In this document: piece after piece, positions 35,710 to 44,101 of the stretch
How positions within the stretch are numbered: the first letter of the stretch is position 1
Layout of the letters: each line of letters starts with the position of its first letter
From: Prevotella koreensis
GTDB lineage: Bacteria; Bacteroidota; Bacteroidia; Bacteroidales; Bacteroidaceae
Length of the DNA stretch: 64,000 nucleotides
Direction: 5' to 3'
Assembly (NCBI RefSeq): GCF_003977605.1
Contig: NZ_RYYU01000001.1
Coordinates: forward strand, 1 to 64,000
The notes under the pieces: model-generated
Seen by the model: the letters and a program-made list of their open reading frames with translations, nothing else
Database searches by the model: none
What the model was told of the DNA's origin: nothing
Program-made: the position numbers and the translations under genes

Positions 35710-36666
35710 ATGGGAATTTTCGGTTTATTCAATAAGAAGAAAAAAGAGACTCTCGACAAGGGGCTTGAAAAGACGAAGGAAAGCGTGTTTTCCAAGTTGG
35801 CAAGAGCCGTGGCAGGCAAGTCAAAGGTCGATGATGACGTTCTCGACAATCTCGAAGAGGTTCTTATTACGAGTGATGTTGGTGTAGAGACAACATTGAA
35901 AGTCATCAGTAAGATAGAGGAAAGGGTGGCTCGCGACAAGTATGTGTCCACTTCCGAACTCAACAATATTCTGCGTGAGGAGATTGCGGAACTGCTGGCA
36001 GAGAATAACACGGAAGACAACGATAACTGGGACTTGCCTTCCGACCATACCCCATACGTAATTCTTGTTGTCGGTGTGAATGGTGTCGGTAAGACAACAA
36101 CAATCGGAAAACTCGCTCATCAGTTCAAGAGTGCAGGGAAGAAGGTTTATCTCGGTGCTGCAGACACTTTCCGTGCGGCTGCCGTTGAGCAGTTGTGTAT
36201 ATGGGGAGAACGTGTGGGATGCACGGTAATAAAGCAGCAGATGGGTAGCGACCCTGCTTCTGTGGCGTTTGATACGTTAAGTTCGGCTAAAGCGAACGGT
36301 GCCGATGTGGTGCTTATAGATACCGCAGGGCGACTCCATAACAAAGTAGGCCTGATGAATGAACTGAAGAAGATTAAGGAGGTTATGAAGAAAGTGGTGC
36401 CCGATGCGCCCGATGAAGTGCTCTTGGTGCTCGATGGAAGCACAGGGCAGAATGCTTTCGAACAGGCCAAACAGTTTGCTGCCGTGACACAGATAACAAG
36501 TCTTGCCATAACCAAACTTGACGGAACGGCCAAGGGTGGAGTGGTAATCGGCATCAGCGACCAGTTGAAAGTGCCGGTAAAATACATCGGACTGGGTGAA
36601 GGAATGGAAGATTTGCAGTTGTTCAACAGACGGCAATTTGTTGATTCTTTGTTTAATACGAAATAA
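35710..36666 (+). CDS. ftsY: Signal recognition particle receptor FtsY
   Basis: The 318-residue SRP GTPase has an N-domain (helical, about 20-95) and a G-domain with VVGVNGVGKTTTIGKLA (P-loop), DTFRAAAVEQL, DTAGRLHNK and TKLDGTAKGG. It lacks the long acidic A-domain of E. coli FtsY, which is common outside Proteobacteria. It receives ribosome-SRP complexes at the inner membrane. rimO starts 25 bp downstream and is probably in the same transcript. Confidence 0.97.
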   Translation: MGIFGLFNKKKKETLDKGLEKTKESVFSKLARAVAGKSKVDDDVLDNLEEVLITSDVGVETTLKVISKIEERVARDKYVSTSELNNILREEIAELLAENNTEDNDNWDLPSDHTPYVILVVGVNGVGKTTTIGKLAHQFKSAGKKVYLGAADTFRAAAVEQLCIWGERVGCTVIKQQMGSDPASVAFDTLSSAKANGADVVLIDTAGRLHNKVGLMNELKKIKEVMKKVVPDAPDEVLLVLDGSTGQNAFEQAKQFAAVTQITSLAITKLDGTAKGGVVIGISDQLKVPVKYIGLGEGMEDLQLFNRRQFVDSLFNTK

Positions 36667-36691: not shown

Positions 36692-38008
36692 TTGAAGCAT
36701 AATCATGTAGATATAATTACCCTTGGATGTTCTAAGAATCTTGTTGACAGCGAGATTCTTATCAAACAATTCGAGATAAACGGATATCCATGTACCCACG
36801 ATAGCAATAAGCCCTGCGGTGAGATTGCTGTAATAAACACTTGTGGCTTCATTGGTGATGCCAAAGAGGAGAGCATAAACACGATATTGGAGTTTATAGA
36901 GCGAAAAAAAGAGGGCAAGTTGGGCAAACTTTTTGTCATGGGTTGCCTTTCTGAACGTTATCGTGAGGAACTCGAAGCAGAACTCCCGGAGGTGGATAAG
37001 TTCTATGGTAAATTCGATTATAAACAACTTATCGCAGATCTCGGATTAGCAAAAACACCGGAAAAACCCATAATGCGTACTCTCACAACTCCCAAACACT
37101 ACGCCTATCTAAAGATAAGCGAGGGTTGTGACCGCCATTGCGCATATTGTGCAATACCGATTATCACAGGAAAACATAAGAGCCGCCCCAAGCAAGAGAT
37201 AATAGAGGAGGTGCAAGCACTTGTCGCACAGGGAGTAAAGGAGTTTCAGGTGATAGCCCAAGAACTCACATTCTATGGTAAGGATATTGACGGCAAGTCG
37301 CATATCGCAGAACTTGTCAGTGATATTGCCGATGTGAAAGGAGTAGAATGGATAAGACTTCATTATGCCTATCCTGCGCAATTCCCCTATGAATTGCTTG
37401 ATGTGATGCGCGAAAAGAAGAATGTTTGCAAATATCTTGATGTTGCTTTGCAGCACATTTCCGACCACATGCTCACCGCAATGCACCGTCATATAACCAA
37501 GGACGAGACTTACAAGTTCATCGAGAGAGTCAGAGAGGCCGTTCCGGGCATAACGCTTAGAACCACTTTAATGGTTGGTTTTCCCGGAGAAACAGAGGAA
37601 GACTTCCGCGAATTAATGGATTTCACTCGCCAAATGCGCTTCGAACGCATGGGTGCCTTTGCTTATTCGGAGGAAGAAGGTACATACGCCGGAAAACATT
37701 ATACCGACGACGTCCCGGCAGAAATAAAGGAAAAACGCCTTGCAGAATTGATGACGCTCCAGCAGACGATAAGTACCGAACTCGAAGAAACGCGTGTCGG
37801 TTCTGTGATGAAGGTCATTATAGACCGAAAAGAGGGCGATTACTACGTCGGAAGAACAGAATACAGTTCGCCGGAGGTTGACCCGGAGGTGCTTATACGT
37901 GCCAACGAAAAGACTTTAAGAGTAGGCAAATTCTACGATGTGATGATTACCGATTCTGAAGAATTCGATCTCTACGGCACTCCTATATTACAAACCACAG
38001 GTGCATGA
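36692..38008 (+). CDS. rimO: Ribosomal protein uS12 methylthiotransferase RimO
   Basis: The 438-residue radical SAM enzyme adds a methylthio group to an aspartate of ribosomal protein S12. The N-terminal UPF0004 domain starts VDIITLGCSKNLVDSE, with cysteines at about 13, 49 and 86 for the second cluster. The radical SAM motif is CDRHCAYC in SEGCDRHCAYCAIP, and a C-terminal TRAM domain follows. Translation appears to begin at a TTG codon (36692): no ATG is in frame before the conserved start of the domain, and AAAGGA lies upstream. It follows ftsY by 25 bp. Confidence 0.95.
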   Translation: MKHNHVDIITLGCSKNLVDSEILIKQFEINGYPCTHDSNKPCGEIAVINTCGFIGDAKEESINTILEFIERKKEGKLGKLFVMGCLSERYREELEAELPEVDKFYGKFDYKQLIADLGLAKTPEKPIMRTLTTPKHYAYLKISEGCDRHCAYCAIPIITGKHKSRPKQEIIEEVQALVAQGVKEFQVIAQELTFYGKDIDGKSHIAELVSDIADVKGVEWIRLHYAYPAQFPYELLDVMREKKNVCKYLDVALQHISDHMLTAMHRHITKDETYKFIERVREAVPGITLRTTLMVGFPGETEEDFRELMDFTRQMRFERMGAFAYSEEEGTYAGKHYTDDVPAEIKEKRLAELMTLQQTISTELEETRVGSVMKVIIDRKEGDYYVGRTEYSSPEVDPEVLIRANEKTLRVGKFYDVMITDSEEFDLYGTPILQTTGA

Positions 38009-38037: not shown

Positions 38038-38331
38038 ATGAACAACAAAGACTTCATACAACGACTGTCGCAGAGACTTGGAATGCCCCAAGATGATGCC
38101 CAGGCCACGCTAAACAAGGCCATAGACATCATGGGAGACATATTCCAAGAGGGTGATTCAATACAGATGCCTAACTTCGGAACGTTTGAGGTAAAGAAGA
38201 GATTGGAGCGTGTTGTAGTCAATCCAAGTACTAAACAGCGCATGCTTGTGCCACCGAAATTAGTGCTCGGATTCAAACCTGTGGCCTCTGTTAAGGAGAA
38301 ACTTAAAAATGGAGGGGTAGGCAATGAGTAA
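38038..38331 (+). CDS. HU-family DNA-binding protein
   Basis: The 97-residue protein has the HU/IHF fold: NKDFIQRLSQRLGMPQDDAQ (helical dimer part), IQMPNFGTFEVKKR, and a DNA arm with NPSTKQRMLVPPKLVLGFKP. Such proteins bend and compact DNA. It starts 29 bp after rimO, and its last codons overlap the start of the next gene, which itself begins with an HU domain. The pair is therefore probably made together and could form heterodimers; that is inference. Confidence 0.92.
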   Translation: MNNKDFIQRLSQRLGMPQDDAQATLNKAIDIMGDIFQEGDSIQMPNFGTFEVKKRLERVVVNPSTKQRMLVPPKLVLGFKPVASVKEKLKNGGVGNE

Positions 38332-39697
38332 GATTACGTTACAGGAGTTGTCGTCACGGCTTGCCGAACGATGCAGTATGAGTGTTGCCGATGCACAGAA
38401 TTTCTTGTCGGCCGTGCTCGACACGATACATGATGGGTTGCATGAAGACAAGTTCTTAAAGATAAAAGGACTTGGTACTTTCAAGGTAATAGATGTAAAG
38501 CAACGAAAAAGTGTTGATGTAAACACCGGTGAAGAGATAATAATCGAAGGGCGCGAGAAGATAACTTTCACGCCCGATGCAATAATGAAAGACTTGGTAA
38601 ACAAGCCTTTCTCACAGTTTGAAACCGTAGTACTGGGCAACGGAGTTGATTTTTCCGATTTCGAATCAACCATTTCAGAAGAGGATAATATGCCTGACGA
38701 AAACCCCGATGTGGATGAAACGCCCGAAGAAACAGTTCCGGAAGAAACAGCGGAAGGACCGAAACCTTCTGATGTTTCCGATGATACGCCGCTCGTCCAG
38801 GACGATTCTTTCAGCGAGGCATTGCTCGTATGGAATTTCATGAATAGCAATGTAAAGCCAATAGAGAGTCAAGACGAGAACAGCGAGGAAACAGAAGATG
38901 TAACTGATGAGGCTGCATGTGAGGACACAAGTGATGATTGTTTTGAAGAACAGAAGCCTGAAGATGCCGATGAGGAGGAGGAAACACAAGGCGAAACGAT
39001 AGAGGAAACCGTAGATGAAGAACCGTCTGCCGCCATTCCTCTTGCTGTGGAACAGGAAGAAACGGAGGAATCATACACTGAAAGCATCTATGCAACAGAA
39101 AAAAACAGTGCATGGAAGCGTTGGCTTATAGCCATTGCGCTTATCGGAGTGTCGGGATTATTGGTGTATTATTTCGTTTCTTTTTACAATGAAAGAGAAA
39201 CTGTGGCTAACGAACAAATTATTACAAACCATGTAATGACAGCGAGAAATTCGTCGCAGGATAAGCATGTCGCTGATTCCGCATCGCAGGCAGACTCATT
39301 GAAGCAGGCAAGCATAGAAAAGGCTGTGGAGGATTCTATCACTGCATTGGCGATAAAGGAAAAAGAGGTAAAGGCAAAACCCGAACCGAAACCGAAGCCG
39401 GCACCAAAGCCGGAGGTAAAAAAAGCAGAGCCGGCAAAGCCGGTGGCAAAACCGGAAACAAACGATAAAGCACTTGAATATTCGCGCCGACTCGTACAGC
39501 ACGGTGCTTACAACATCGTGGGTACCGACAAGGTGATAACCATAAAGAAAGGACAGACTATGACATCTGTTGCGAAAGCCTATCTCGGTAAGGATATGGT
39601 CTGCTACATCGAGGTGCATAACGGGACAACGACATTGAAAGAAGGGCAGAAATTGAAGATTCCCAAACTCAGTTTGAAGAAGAAAACAAAGAGGTGA
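38324..39697 (+). CDS. HU domain - transmembrane helix - LysM-like fusion protein
   Basis: The 457-residue protein has four parts. Residues 1-95 form an HU-like DNA-binding domain (LKIKGLGTFKVIDVKQRKSV, with a DNA arm near 60-78). Residues 110-262 are a long acidic low-complexity stretch rich in E, D, P and T. Residues 267-287 are one membrane helix preceded by KRW. Residues 350-380 are a Lys-Pro-Glu-Ala-rich rod, followed by a LysM-like domain at 400-447 (ITIKKGQTMTSVAKAYLG). By the positive-inside rule the HU part is cytoplasmic and the LysM part periplasmic, so the protein could link DNA to peptidoglycan. It overlaps the upstream HU gene by 8 bp and ends at a terminator. Proteins with this layout occur in Bacteroidales, but I know of no established function. 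Confidence 0.88.
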   Translation: MSKITLQELSSRLAERCSMSVADAQNFLSAVLDTIHDGLHEDKFLKIKGLGTFKVIDVKQRKSVDVNTGEEIIIEGREKITFTPDAIMKDLVNKPFSQFETVVLGNGVDFSDFESTISEEDNMPDENPDVDETPEETVPEETAEGPKPSDVSDDTPLVQDDSFSEALLVWNFMNSNVKPIESQDENSEETEDVTDEAACEDTSDDCFEEQKPEDADEEEETQGETIEETVDEEPSAAIPLAVEQEETEESYTESIYATEKNSAWKRWLIAIALIGVSGLLVYYFVSFYNERETVANEQIITNHVMTARNSSQDKHVADSASQADSLKQASIEKAVEDSITALAIKEKEVKAKPEPKPKPAPKPEVKKAEPAKPVAKPETNDKALEYSRRLVQHGAYNIVGTDKVITIKKGQTMTSVAKAYLGKDMVCYIEVHNGTTTLKEGQKLKIPKLSLKKKTKR

Positions 39698-39897: not shown

Positions 39898-40893
39898 ATG
39901 GCAGAAGCATTTGATATACGCGAATTGAATAATCGTATAGAGCAACAAAGTTCGTTTATTAGTACGCTCACTATGGGCATGGATCGTGTGATTGTCGGAC
40001 AAAAACATCTGATAGATTCGCTCCTTATAGGTCTGCTTAGCGATGGTCACATTCTGCTTGAGGGTGTACCGGGACTTGCAAAGACCCTTGCAATAAAAAC
40101 TCTTGCACAACTTATTGATGCTGCTTACAGTCGTATTCAGTTCACTCCCGACCTGCTTCCGGCAGACGTCATTGGTACACTCATCTACTCACAAAAGGAC
40201 GAGAACTTCCATGTGAAGAAAGGTCCGGTGTTTGCCAACTTCGTTTTGGCAGATGAGATTAACCGTGCTCCGGCCAAAGTACAGAGCGCATTGCTCGAAG
40301 CCATGCAGGAACATATCGTGACCATTGGCAGTGAGACATTCAGTTTGCCAACTCCTTTCCTTGTAATGGCTACCCAGAACCCGATAGAGCAGGAGGGAAC
40401 ATACCCGTTGCCGGAGGCGCAGGTTGACCGTTTCATGCTGAAAGTGATAATAGACTATCCTACCATAAGCGAAGAGAAACTCATCATAAGAGAGAATTTA
40501 CAGAGCGCATTGCCCACGGTAACTCCGGTTATTTCGGCAAAAGAAATTCTCGATGCACGAGAGGTGGTAAGACAGGTTTATATCGACGAAAAGATAGAAC
40601 AGTATATTGCCGACATAGTTTTTGCGACGCGCTATCCCGACAGGTATGGCTTGGTGTCGCTTAAAGACATGATTACGTTTGGCGGTTCTCCGCGTGCCTC
40701 TATCAATCTTGCCAAGGCTGCAAGGGCTTTCGCGTTCATTAAGCGCAGAGGATATGTCGTTCCCGAAGACGTGCGTGCCGTGGCTCACGATGTGCTCCGC
40801 CACCGTATCGGACTGAGTTACGAGGCTGAGGCAAGTAACGTGAGCAGCGAGGAAATTGTTAGCAGCATCATAAACAAGGTAGAAGTACCATAA
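39898..40893 (+). CDS. MoxR-family AAA+ ATPase of the bat operon
   Basis: The 331-residue AAA+ protein has Walker A GVPGLAKT at 56-63, Walker B VLADEIN at 116-122, sensor ATQNP and the C-terminal lid. MoxR ATPases act as chaperones for partners with von Willebrand A (VWA) domains. Here it is the first gene of the cluster moxR-DUF58-BatD-like-batA-batB-batC-batDE, which matches the Bacteroides aerotolerance operon. It is separated from the DUF58 gene by 218 bp that contain repeat array D. Confidence 0.95.
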   Translation: MAEAFDIRELNNRIEQQSSFISTLTMGMDRVIVGQKHLIDSLLIGLLSDGHILLEGVPGLAKTLAIKTLAQLIDAAYSRIQFTPDLLPADVIGTLIYSQKDENFHVKKGPVFANFVLADEINRAPAKVQSALLEAMQEHIVTIGSETFSLPTPFLVMATQNPIEQEGTYPLPEAQVDRFMLKVIIDYPTISEEKLIIRENLQSALPTVTPVISAKEILDAREVVRQVYIDEKIEQYIADIVFATRYPDRYGLVSLKDMITFGGSPRASINLAKAARAFAFIKRRGYVVPEDVRAVAHDVLRHRIGLSYEAEASNVSSEEIVSSIINKVEVP

Positions 40894-40924
40894 ATAATTC
40901 CTTACTTTTTGGCTGTTGGGAAAA

Positions 40925-41012
40925 CAATTTCGCCCAATTTGTTTTGTAAAACAGGCAAATTTGAAAAGCAATTTCGCCCAATTTGCCGACCAATTTCGCC
41001 CAGTTTGCCGAG
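40925..41012. repeat. 22-nt-period repeat array D (4 units, inside the bat operon)
   Basis: Units start at 40925, 40947, 40969 and 40991. Units 1, 3 and 4 are direct copies (CAATTTCGCCCAATTTG, the same, and CAATTTCGCCCAGTTTG); unit 2 is the CAGGC variant. Unlike arrays B and C, there is no inverted partner, so it cannot form the same hairpin. It begins 31 bp after the moxR stop codon and ends 99 bp before the DUF58 gene. Confidence 0.88.
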
Positions 41013-41111
41013 CGTGTCATTGTTGCCGGCTTTGCGATGTGCGGTTAAACTTCTGACAGAACGTGTTTTAATGACGTTTTTTAGGATTAAAGTACAAGGA
41101 AAAATAAGAAA

Positions 41112-41981
41112 ATGGAAACAACGGACATACTGAAAAGAGTTCGCAAGATAGAAATAAAGACGCGAGGATTGAGCCGCAATATATTTGCCGGCCAGTATCA
41201 TTCTGCGTTCAAGGGGCGCGGTATGGCTTTCAGTGAGGTTCGCGAATATCAGTTCGGCGATGACGTTCGCGATATTGACTGGAATGTCACCGCCCGTTTC
41301 CATCGTCCGTATATCAAGGTTTATGAGGAGGAGCGCGAACTCACGGTGATGCTACTGATAGATGTCAGCGGCTCGCTGGATTTTGGAACAGAGAAGTGCA
41401 TGAAGCGTGAAATGGTTACAGAGATAGCCGCGACGCTGGCTTTCAGTGCCATACAGAACAACGACAAGATAGGCGTGGTGTTCTTCTCAGACAGGATAGA
41501 GAAGTATATCCCGCCAAAGAAAGGCCGCAAGCATATATTGTATATTATTCGTGAGTTGCTCGATTTCAATGCTTCGAGCAAGAAAACCGACTTGAAAAGT
41601 GCCGTGGAGTTCCTTACAAGTGTCACAAAGAGACGTTGCACGGCTTTCGTTCTGAGCGATTTCTATGACCAAGGAGATTTCGCCAATGCCCTCACTATAT
41701 GCAATCGCAAGCACGATGTGGTGGCTATTCAAGTGTATGACCGACGTGCAAGCGAACTTCCCGATGTGGGACTGATGAAAGTTCTCGATGCCGAGACAGG
41801 TCATGAGATGTATATCGACACCGGTAGTAAGAAACTTCGTGCTGCCCATCATAACTATTGGATGAAGCGGCAGCGTGTGTTGCGCGATACCTTTATAAAG
41901 AGTCGGGTTGATAATGTATCTATCTGTACAACCGATGATTATGTGAAATCCTTGATGCAATTGTTTGCAATGCGAGGATAG
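41112..41981 (+). CDS. DUF58 domain protein of the bat operon
   Basis: The 289-residue cytoplasmic protein has the DUF58 signature GMAFSEVREYQFGDDVRDIDW (38-58, one residue more than shown in brief form) and a degenerate VWA fold with a metal-site-like DVSGS at 84-88. DUF58 proteins nearly always sit beside a MoxR ATPase and are thought to be its client or adaptor. There is no membrane anchor, unlike BatA and BatB. Confidence 0.92.
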   Translation: METTDILKRVRKIEIKTRGLSRNIFAGQYHSAFKGRGMAFSEVREYQFGDDVRDIDWNVTARFHRPYIKVYEEERELTVMLLIDVSGSLDFGTEKCMKREMVTEIAATLAFSAIQNNDKIGVVFFSDRIEKYIPPKKGRKHILYIIRELLDFNASSKKTDLKSAVEFLTSVTKRRCTAFVLSDFYDQGDFANALTICNRKHDVVAIQVYDRRASELPDVGLMKVLDAETGHEMYIDTGSKKLRAAHHNYWMKRQRVLRDTFIKSRVDNVSICTTDDYVKSLMQLFAMRG

Positions 41982-42008
41982 TCGTAAACAAATTAATGCT
42001 TTTGAAAG

Positions 42009-43115
42009 GTGTTTGTAGGATATAAAAAGATAATATCGCTGATAGTGTTGATGTTGAGCGTGTTGCCAATGTCTGCTCAAGTTGAGGTGAAGTCGAGACT
42101 TGACTCCACCGAAACATATATCGGCCGACAGGTACACATCACTCTCGACGTGACATTGAAGTCGGGCATGAAACTCGTTCTTCCTGAATATAAGCCTTTG
42201 GAACACATTACTCCGGGCTTAGAGGTTGTTGAACAAAGTGTTGCCGACACGTCAAAACTCGACAACGACATGCTGAAGGTGTCGAGAATATATACACTAA
42301 CGTCCTTCGATGAGAACATCTATTACATCCCACCGATGAATGTGAAGGTTGATGGGAAGGACTATAAGAGTCGTGAACTCGCTCTTAAAGTGTTCACGGT
42401 AGAGGTAGATACGTTGCACCCGGAGAATTTTTATCCTCCGAAGGACGTACAGAACAATCCTTTCAAATGGGAAGACTGGAGTGGGCTTTTCAGTATGAGT
42501 GTGTTGCTGACGCTGCTCGTCATCCTGACCTATTATCTGTTTACGAGGTTCAAGGAAAACAAACCTGTGATAGCCAAGGTGAGGTTTGTTAAGCGTGTTC
42601 TTCCGCATCAGAAGGCCATGAGAGAGATAGAGCGCATCAAGGCAGACAACATGACATCGTCGGAAAATCAGAAAGAATACTACACCCAACTTACAGACAC
42701 GTTAAGAAAGTATATCGAGGAGCGTTTCGGATTCAGTGCAATGGAGATGACGAGTTCCGAGATAATATCCGGTCTGAAAGCAAATGGCGACAGTGATATG
42801 ATAATGGAGTTGAGGAGTTTGTTCGAGACAGCCGACCTCGTGAAGTTTGCCAAGCACTCGACACAAATCAACGAGAACGACAATAATCTTGTGAATGCCA
42901 TACAGTTCATCAACACCACAAAGGTTGAAGACCGTCCGCAGGTGGAGCGAGTAGAACCGAAACTTACCACCGAAGAGAAACAAGGCATGCGTTACAGACG
43001 CATCTTGAAATGGACAATCGGTGCGCTCACTGCTGTTTGTGTGGTCATTCTGGTATATATAATCTATAACGCGGCAACGCTGTTGTCGTATGAACTTGAG
43101 ATATGGAGTTTCTGA
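42009..43115 (+). CDS. BatD-like membrane protein of the bat operon
   Basis: The 368-residue protein has a signal peptide (1-23, ending MSAQ), an immunoglobulin-like periplasmic domain resembling the first part of BatD (VKSRLDSTETYIGRQVHITL), a membrane helix near 160-182, a cytoplasmic helical domain like DUF4381 (ADNMTSSENQKEYYTQLTDTL, then KYIEERFGFSAMEMTSSEII) and a second helix near 338-358. It starts at GTG; an in-frame stop at 42003 excludes an earlier start. The same helical domain also follows the membrane helix in the later BatD-BatE protein, so the two look like paralogues. Its end overlaps batA by 13 bp. Confidence 0.75.
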   Translation: MFVGYKKIISLIVLMLSVLPMSAQVEVKSRLDSTETYIGRQVHITLDVTLKSGMKLVLPEYKPLEHITPGLEVVEQSVADTSKLDNDMLKVSRIYTLTSFDENIYYIPPMNVKVDGKDYKSRELALKVFTVEVDTLHPENFYPPKDVQNNPFKWEDWSGLFSMSVLLTLLVILTYYLFTRFKENKPVIAKVRFVKRVLPHQKAMREIERIKADNMTSSENQKEYYTQLTDTLRKYIEERFGFSAMEMTSSEIISGLKANGDSDMIMELRSLFETADLVKFAKHSTQINENDNNLVNAIQFINTTKVEDRPQVERVEPKLTTEEKQGMRYRRILKWTIGALTAVCVVILVYIIYNAATLLSYELEIWSF

Positions 43116-44101
43116 ATAAAGAGTGCTTCTTGCTGTTGTTGCTGCTCGTGCCATATTTCCTATGGTATGTGCTATATTGGAAGAAGAGCGAACCTACGAT
43201 GAAGATGAGCGATACCAACGTCTATCGCTATGCTTCAAAGAGTCTTAAGGTGAGACTTATGTGGTTGCCTGATGCGCTGCGTGTGCTCACTTTCGTGCTT
43301 GTTGTTATAATTCTGGCACGCCCGCAGACACATACAGCGTGGGGAAACCGAACAACCGAGGGCATCGACATAATGCTGGCAATGGACGTTTCGACGAGTA
43401 TGCTCGCCGAAGACCTGAAACCTAACCGCATAGAGGCAGCCAAAGAGGTGGCAACGGAATTTATATCCGACCGCCCCAACGACAATATCGGACTGACGGT
43501 ATTTGCCGGCGAGGCTTTCACACAGTGCCCCATGACCACCGACCATACCTCTTTGCTGAATCTTCTTCAGAATGTAAGAACCGATATTGCGGCACGAGGA
43601 CTCATCGCCGATGGTACCGCCATTGGTATGGGACTGGCCAATGCCGTAAGCAGATTGAGAGAAAGCAAGATGAAGAGCAAGGTTGTTATCCTGCTTACCG
43701 ACGGTAGTAACAACATGGGTGACATCTCTCCGCTCACCGCAGCGAATATCGCGAAGAGTCTCGGTATTCGTGTCTATACGGTCGCTGTGGGCACAAAGAC
43801 CGTTGCGCCATACCCTGTTCAGGTGGGTGGTACAACGCAGTATGTCAATGCCAAGGCAGATATTGACACCAAAACACTTAGCGATATTGCCGCTACTGCT
43901 GATGGTCATTTCTATCGTGCCACGAATAACAAGGAGTTGAAACAGATTTATAAAGATATAGATAAATTGGAAAAAACGAGAATGGACGTGAAGAAATTCT
44001 CTCGACGATATGACATATATCAGCCTTTTGCATTGGCTGCCCTGCTGTCATTGTTGCTCGAAGTGCTTTTGCGTCTTACCATATTCCGTCGTATTCCATA
44101 A
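43103..44101 (+). CDS. batA: BatA, membrane VWA-domain protein
   Basis: The 332-residue protein has two N-terminal membrane helices (5-25 and 55-73), a VWA domain with the metal-binding motif DVSTS at 95-99, a threonine in TTDHTS and LLTDGSN, and a C-terminal helix near 305-325. The metal site is complete, so it should bind Mg2+ and ligands like an integrin I domain. In Bacteroides fragilis the bat genes improve tolerance of oxygen; the mechanism is unsettled. It overlaps the upstream gene by 13 bp. Confidence 0.93.
   Translation: MEFLNKECFLLLLLLVPYFLWYVLYWKKSEPTMKMSDTNVYRYASKSLKVRLMWLPDALRVLTFVLVVIILARPQTHTAWGNRTTEGIDIMLAMDVSTSMLAEDLKPNRIEAAKEVATEFISDRPNDNIGLTVFAGEAFTQCPMTTDHTSLLNLLQNVRTDIAARGLIADGTAIGMGLANAVSRLRESKMKSKVVILLTDGSNNMGDISPLTAANIAKSLGIRVYTVAVGTKTVAPYPVQVGGTTQYVNAKADIDTKTLSDIAATADGHFYRATNNKELKQIYKDIDKLEKTRMDVKKFSRRYDIYQPFALAALLSLLLEVLLRLTIFRRIP

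Follow-up and report, generated by a model that had tools for sequence, protein, structure and literature searches.

A putative membrane-anchored HU heterodimer encoded by two overlapping genes in Prevotella koreensis and its relatives in Bacteroidota

Layout of the gene pair

The window, meaning the whole stretch of 64,000 nucleotides analysed from contig NZ_RYYU01000001.1 of Prevotella koreensis, holds two overlapping genes on the forward strand that both encode HU-type domains. The genes, their parts and their neighbours are as follows:

35710..36666, +: ftsY (SRP receptor GTPase), by Pfam; conserved neighbour in Prevotella, outside the proposed mechanism
36692..38008, +: rimO-like radical SAM gene, by Pfam; conserved neighbour
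38038..38331, +: upstream HU-type protein of 97 aa, predicted to be the small, basic, soluble subunit; Pfam Bac_DNA_binding, E 2.4e-22
38324..38331, +: overlap ATGAGTAA, upstream stop and downstream start, by sequence
38324..39697, +: predicted membrane-anchored HU subunit of 457 aa, HU - acidic linker - membrane helix - K/P-rich rod - LysM
38336..38602, +: HU domain, residues 5-93, by Pfam, AF2 and alignments
38489..38557, +: beta-arm of the membrane subunit, residues 56-78, tip V66 at 38519-38521, net charge -2
38615..39088, +: acidic linker, predicted disordered, residues 98-255, by AF2 and composition
39125..39181, +: predicted single membrane helix, residues 268-286, by hydropathy and flanking charge in homologues (AF2 helix 259-305; N side inside)
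39371..39451, +: Lys/Pro-rich periplasmic rod, about residues 350-376, by sequence
39509..39676, +: LysM fold, residues 396-451, by AF2 and VIA-align; Pfam LysM below threshold
39898..40893, +: MoxR AAA ATPase, first gene of a MoxR/DUF58/vWA cluster, by Pfam; frequent neighbour

The open reading frame 38324..39697 (+), with an ATG start, was confirmed in the sequence, and translational coupling to the HU gene is likely at the 8 nt shared by the two frames. The order of domains given by the initial annotation, an HU domain followed by an acidic stretch, one membrane helix, a rod and a LysM-like domain, was borne out by Pfam, AF2, comparison with the PDB and composition, and its conservation in more than 180 distinct loci excludes chance. 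The HU domain of the membrane subunit matches Pfam Bac_DNA_binding (PF00216) at 64.5 bits (E 1.1e-17, residues 5-93), and both window proteins far exceed the cut-off of this model. Structure prediction of both ends, named by the initial annotation as a check that could speak against an HU fold, returned an HU fold (pLDDT about 95) and a LysM fold (about 97) on either side of a disordered linker. HU/IHF chains in the PDB match the predicted HU fold at Z about 10, the best PDB sequence matches of this domain being IHF (E 5.5e-10, scIHF2), and a conserved NKPFxxFETVVL extension follows the domain in alignments to about residue 104.

The linker of 158 residues holds 57 D/E and only 3 K/R, and it is net negative in 182/183 homologues. 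The membrane helix is flanked on its N side by the KR-rich NSAWKRW, and a second hydrophobic segment was present in only 1/183 homologues. Of the 183 homologues, 123 carry more K+R on the N-terminal flank of the helix than on the other flank and 37 carry equal numbers, with means of 3.1 vs 1.7, which supports the topology first suggested, HU in the cytoplasm and LysM outside; such flanking charges favour this orientation and are not proof of it.

The LysM part of the model is closest to 4uz2 (VIA-align Z 6.0, rmsd 1.4 A over 46 residues), with further matches to the Kbp-based sensors 7vcm and 8zex. In the window protein itself the Pfam LysM model reaches 14.9 bits, under its cut-off of 20.9, and is matched by 13/56 homologues at E <= 0.01 (best E 4.7e-7); a sequence search of the PDB with the window LysM segment returned no LysM, only weak RecA repeats. 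Peptidoglycan binding would be expected of a domain with this predicted fold. Three relatives (L264, L265 and L266 in genomes G281, G323 and G309) keep the HU domain, acidic linker and membrane helix and end soon after the helix, so that the LysM domain, missing there, appears dispensable in places. Two side observations concern this end of the protein. A protein of about 220 aa next to an OmpA-like gene (L246:1681-2340 (-), G802) pairs a membrane helix with a LysM of the kind found here but has no HU domain; the periplasmic part of the module may have come from such a protein or given rise to it. In another genome (L243 / L306, G205) the HU part and the TM-LysM part lie in different frames, where a frameshift or assembly error is suspected.

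Pairing, inheritance and gene neighbourhood

The nearest named relatives of the membrane subunit belong to Prevotella and related genera, and a profile search found relatives at E <= 1e-27 in 41/247 genomes sampled across the order Bacteroidales. Outside the order, in the sampled class, no full-length relative was present among the matches listed, which there cover the HU domain only. Another class of the phylum contributes further relatives, in a single family (f131) that may be Balneolia/Rhodothermia.

The gene-neighbourhood survey proposed in the initial annotation gave a uniform answer, an HU frame lying directly upstream on the same strand in 161/161 homologous loci first examined, from two classes of Bacteroidota. 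The spacing of the pair is -1, -4, -8 or -11 nt in 123/161 of these loci, overlaps of 1, 8, 4 and 11 nt being the commonest. Of a larger set of 184 distinct loci, 182 have the upstream HU as a gene of its own, and in two the genes are fused. In a tree of HU domains built on 96 columns, of which only the main splits are trusted, the upstream HUs of both classes form one clade (100/99) and the membrane HU domains of both classes another (100/98), with plain HU standing apart from both (96/87). Since each of the separate upstream and downstream clades spans two classes, the two genes have been passed down as a pair.

The order ftsY-rimO-HU-HU/LysM is constant in Prevotella (ftsY in 62/62 eligible Prevotella loci, rimO in 74/74 eligible loci), with moxR following in 45/72 eligible loci. 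In eight loci of the other class there was no match to ftsY or moxR, and rimO gave only one distant match on the opposite strand. The neighbours thus differ between the classes yet the pair persists, which argues for functional linkage and not for inertia of the neighbourhood. On the evidence of the sequences, the HU and HU-LysM genes are an ancient two-gene module of Bacteroidota. Directly downstream of the pair, at 39898-44101 of the window, lie genes for a MoxR ATPase, a DUF58-like protein, a membrane protein and a vWA protein, a Bat-type cluster.

Heterodimer and beta-arms

In one genus (25 genomes), which by our reading is Porphyromonas-like, both HU halves, the acidic linker, the membrane helix and the LysM domain are found in a single chain, and a separate fusion of both HUs is found in a genome of the window's own family (G222). 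Structure prediction of the joined HU halves was confined to natural fusions, as a mixed alignment of fused and unfused forms collapsed both halves onto the first HU. AF2 modelled the naturally fused HU-HU region as one compact fold (pLDDT 91.7, pTM 0.85). In structure comparison 122 residues within the model range 1-168 superpose on single-chain IHF 2iie/2iif with Z 10.1, and the model also matches the microtubule inner proteins 8snb_1K (Z 11.8) and 8g2z_0T (Z 10.0) and a chain of the Mycoplasma mobile gliding machinery (Z 12.3). Single HU chains align only to one half of the model or to pieces of both halves, as expected for an intertwined pseudodimer. The upstream HU, offered by the initial annotation as a possible dimer partner, is now well supported as the predicted partner of the membrane HU by pairing in every locus, co-inherited clades, natural fusions and the compact fused fold, the model of another lineage's fusion being indirect evidence for the window pair; in Prevotella koreensis itself the two proteins would be expected to form the same heterodimer.

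The two beta-arms of the window pair are unlike. The upstream HU keeps the arm tip N62-P63 (Pro codon 38224-38226) on an arm of net charge +6, and the tip Pro is present in 180/182 of the separate upstream HUs. The mean charge of this arm is +5.2 in the order and only +2.6 in the other class, where HU net charges are near zero. In the membrane subunit of the window V66 replaces the intercalating Pro of HU/IHF, and V or I stands at this tip in 153/160 Bacteroidales homologues, the mean charge of the arm in the order being -1.9. Within the order a Pro at the membrane HU tip was found in two relatives (L233 and L244). In the other class it is present in 22/22, so that there Pro is kept in both arms.

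Several lineages have gone further. Most of the second arm is missing from four unfused relatives (L238, L239, L241 and L245) and from the fused forms, and there the partner arm has lost charge as well, averaging +1 in the four unfused cases and -0.24 in the fused genus; the HU-HU region of that genus has a net charge of -7 and no NP tip. Within the order, the charges of the two arms of a pair do not offset each other (r 0.21). What the relatives retain throughout is the pair of HU cores together with the linker and the helix. With one arm deleted and the charge of its partner lost, the lineages concerned can probably do without DNA binding. A stand-alone HU of the same genome (L002) is also without the Pro, so loss of Pro alone is no proof of lost DNA binding.

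The proposal that the membrane subunit holds DNA by its own HU domain is weakened by these observations, its HU fold being confirmed while the arm is acidic, has lost the tip Pro and is deleted in several lineages. Loss of the DNA-contact residues in all orthologues, which the initial annotation took to be incompatible with its proposal, is found in most Bacteroidales and not overall, given the Pro in 22/22 of the other class. Judged from these sequences, an asymmetric mode of DNA binding probably arose in Prevotella/Bacteroides-like lineages, and the fused, Porphyromonas-like lineages have probably given up DNA binding.

Interpretation and comparison with known systems

From the computed domain layout, pairing, co-inheritance, natural fusion, compact fused-pair fold and arm asymmetry we infer the following model. 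The two overlapping genes would encode the halves of an obligate HU heterodimer, in which the 97-aa upstream HU would be soluble and basic and carry a canonical proline arm, and the downstream subunit would join the other HU half to a long acidic tether, an inner-membrane helix and a periplasmic LysM domain gripping peptidoglycan. The dimer, its DNA-binding face turned to the cytoplasm, would then be fixed at the inner membrane and the cell wall, would hold chromosomal DNA mainly via the arm of the small subunit, and would act as a nucleoid-to-envelope anchor with a putative role in chromosome positioning or segregation. We consider such an envelope-anchored heterodimer, with DNA held mainly by its small subunit, about evenly balanced between right and wrong.

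The HU pair could also be a protein-docking module that, like eukaryotic CCDC81, binds a cytoplasmic protein, from the cytoskeleton or from the machinery of division or cell-wall synthesis, and connects it across the membrane to peptidoglycan, a reading that we find possible though somewhat short of probable. Its precedent is RodZ, in which a cytoplasmic fold of DNA-binding type, a single membrane helix and a periplasmic domain are joined and which links MreB; the general plan is that of the HU-LysM protein, with the difference that RodZ has an HTH in place of HU. No match to the RodZ-type HTH_25 (PF13413) was found in the same genome. Docking would also agree with the decay or outright loss of arms in proteins that still have their HU cores and membrane helix, and with the resemblance of the fused pair, besides scIHF, to microtubule inner proteins and the gliding chain; a CCDC81 homologue (IJ34, CCDC81b) is a component of microtubule doublets (PMC10105768, PMC11961760). 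The basic Pro arm of the upstream HU in the window, its Pro in nearly every other upstream HU and the Pro in both arms of the other class are however hard to explain without DNA. Docking probably does apply to the fused lineage.

The membrane subunit might otherwise sequester or regulate its partner by drawing the small HU away from its free pool and to the membrane; the acidic linker would be a DNA mimic that competes with DNA for the basic arm. The acidity of almost every linker, the acidic arm beside a basic one and the apparent translational coupling of the two genes would suit such a role, but it leaves the LysM domain and the permanent fusion in some lineages unexplained, and a linker of this kind is nothing unusual among single-pass envelope proteins; we hold this reading to be unlikely. 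Highly improbable is the reading first proposed, in which the HU-LysM protein alone, for instance as a homodimer, tethers DNA: the HU fold, membrane helix and LysM that it calls for are present, but its arm is acidic and without Pro, and an HU partner is directly upstream or fused at every locus examined. Compared with IHF/HU heterodimers (DNABII), the heterodimer that we favour would share the HU fold and the use of two different subunits, and would differ in having one subunit that is membrane-anchored, lacks the arm-tip Pro and carries an acidic arm.

Burroughs and colleagues reportedly described in 2017 HU-CCDC81-TM-SPOR proteins of Bacteroidetes with a predicted role in chromosome partition, which we take to be the HU-CCDC81_bac_1/HU-CCDC81_bac_2 - TM - SPOR proteins of Pfam PF18174/PF18175 + PF05036. 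Among known proteins they come closest, and they resemble the window pair in having two HU halves, one membrane helix and a C-terminal peptidoglycan-binding domain; in the window, by contrast, the halves are two genes with canonical PF00216 domains, the partner has a basic Pro arm and LysM stands in place of SPOR. On the window pair the HU-CCDC81 bac_2 model gave 16.6 bits vs a cut-off of 35 and bac_1 gave no match, and no SPOR domain was found in the window protein, the three SPOR matches of the genome lying elsewhere. Without these defining features the pair is a related variant and not a member of the family. In a tree that included the SPOR-type halves, HU1 fell among the upstream subunits and HU2 beside the second halves of the fused forms, both on very long branches (2.5-2.7), and the fused halves f1 and f2 grouped apart from the upstream and downstream clades, probably by long-branch attraction.

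The same genome encodes a protein of the HU-CCDC81_bac_1/bac_2 - membrane helix - SPOR type (L070:1489-2565; G000:C1 near 826429-826641 (-)), with domain matches at E 5.6e-25 for bac_1, 4.7e-23 for bac_2 and 9e-4 for SPOR. This is a second, parallel design of an envelope-anchored tandem HU, and its second HU half is also without the arm. Profile comparison of this type with the fused HU-LysM relatives gave a probability of 93.3 (E 2.8e-7) with both HU halves in order. Five further divergent HU-type frames of 136-155 aa are found in the genome (L005-L008 and G000:C1:97224-97382), as in the HU-HIG-type expansion of Bacteroidetes, one of them (L006) near a transposase-like frame. A literature search confined to open-licence papers found no described HU-LysM protein, which is no evidence of novelty.

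The eukaryotic CCDC81-type microtubule inner proteins align with the tandem HU pseudodimer of the fused relatives (Z 10-12). Unlike the window pair they are eukaryotic and act as a protein scaffold rather than as DNA binders, and we know of none with a membrane helix or LysM. In the fused lineages the module was probably converted to a CCDC81-like role without DNA. More tentatively, and on balance doubtfully, the module may be an ancient chromosome-to-cell-wall anchor whose relatives record the passage from an HU heterodimer to a tandem-HU scaffold that does not bind DNA, by way of forms with Pro in both arms, with one acidic arm without Pro, with an arm deleted and with the genes fused, a passage that may have led to HU-CCDC81-SPOR and to eukaryotic CCDC81.

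To our knowledge, little is known about the way in which Bacteroidota keep their chromosome at the envelope and segregate it there. The module may fasten the chromosome or some protein partner to the envelope, and the conserved pair is a direct and testable candidate for linking the nucleoid through the inner membrane to peptidoglycan. Its intermediates, in which an HU heterodimer apparently loses DNA binding while membrane-anchored, suggest a possible route to the CCDC81 tandem-HU scaffold of eukaryotic cilia.
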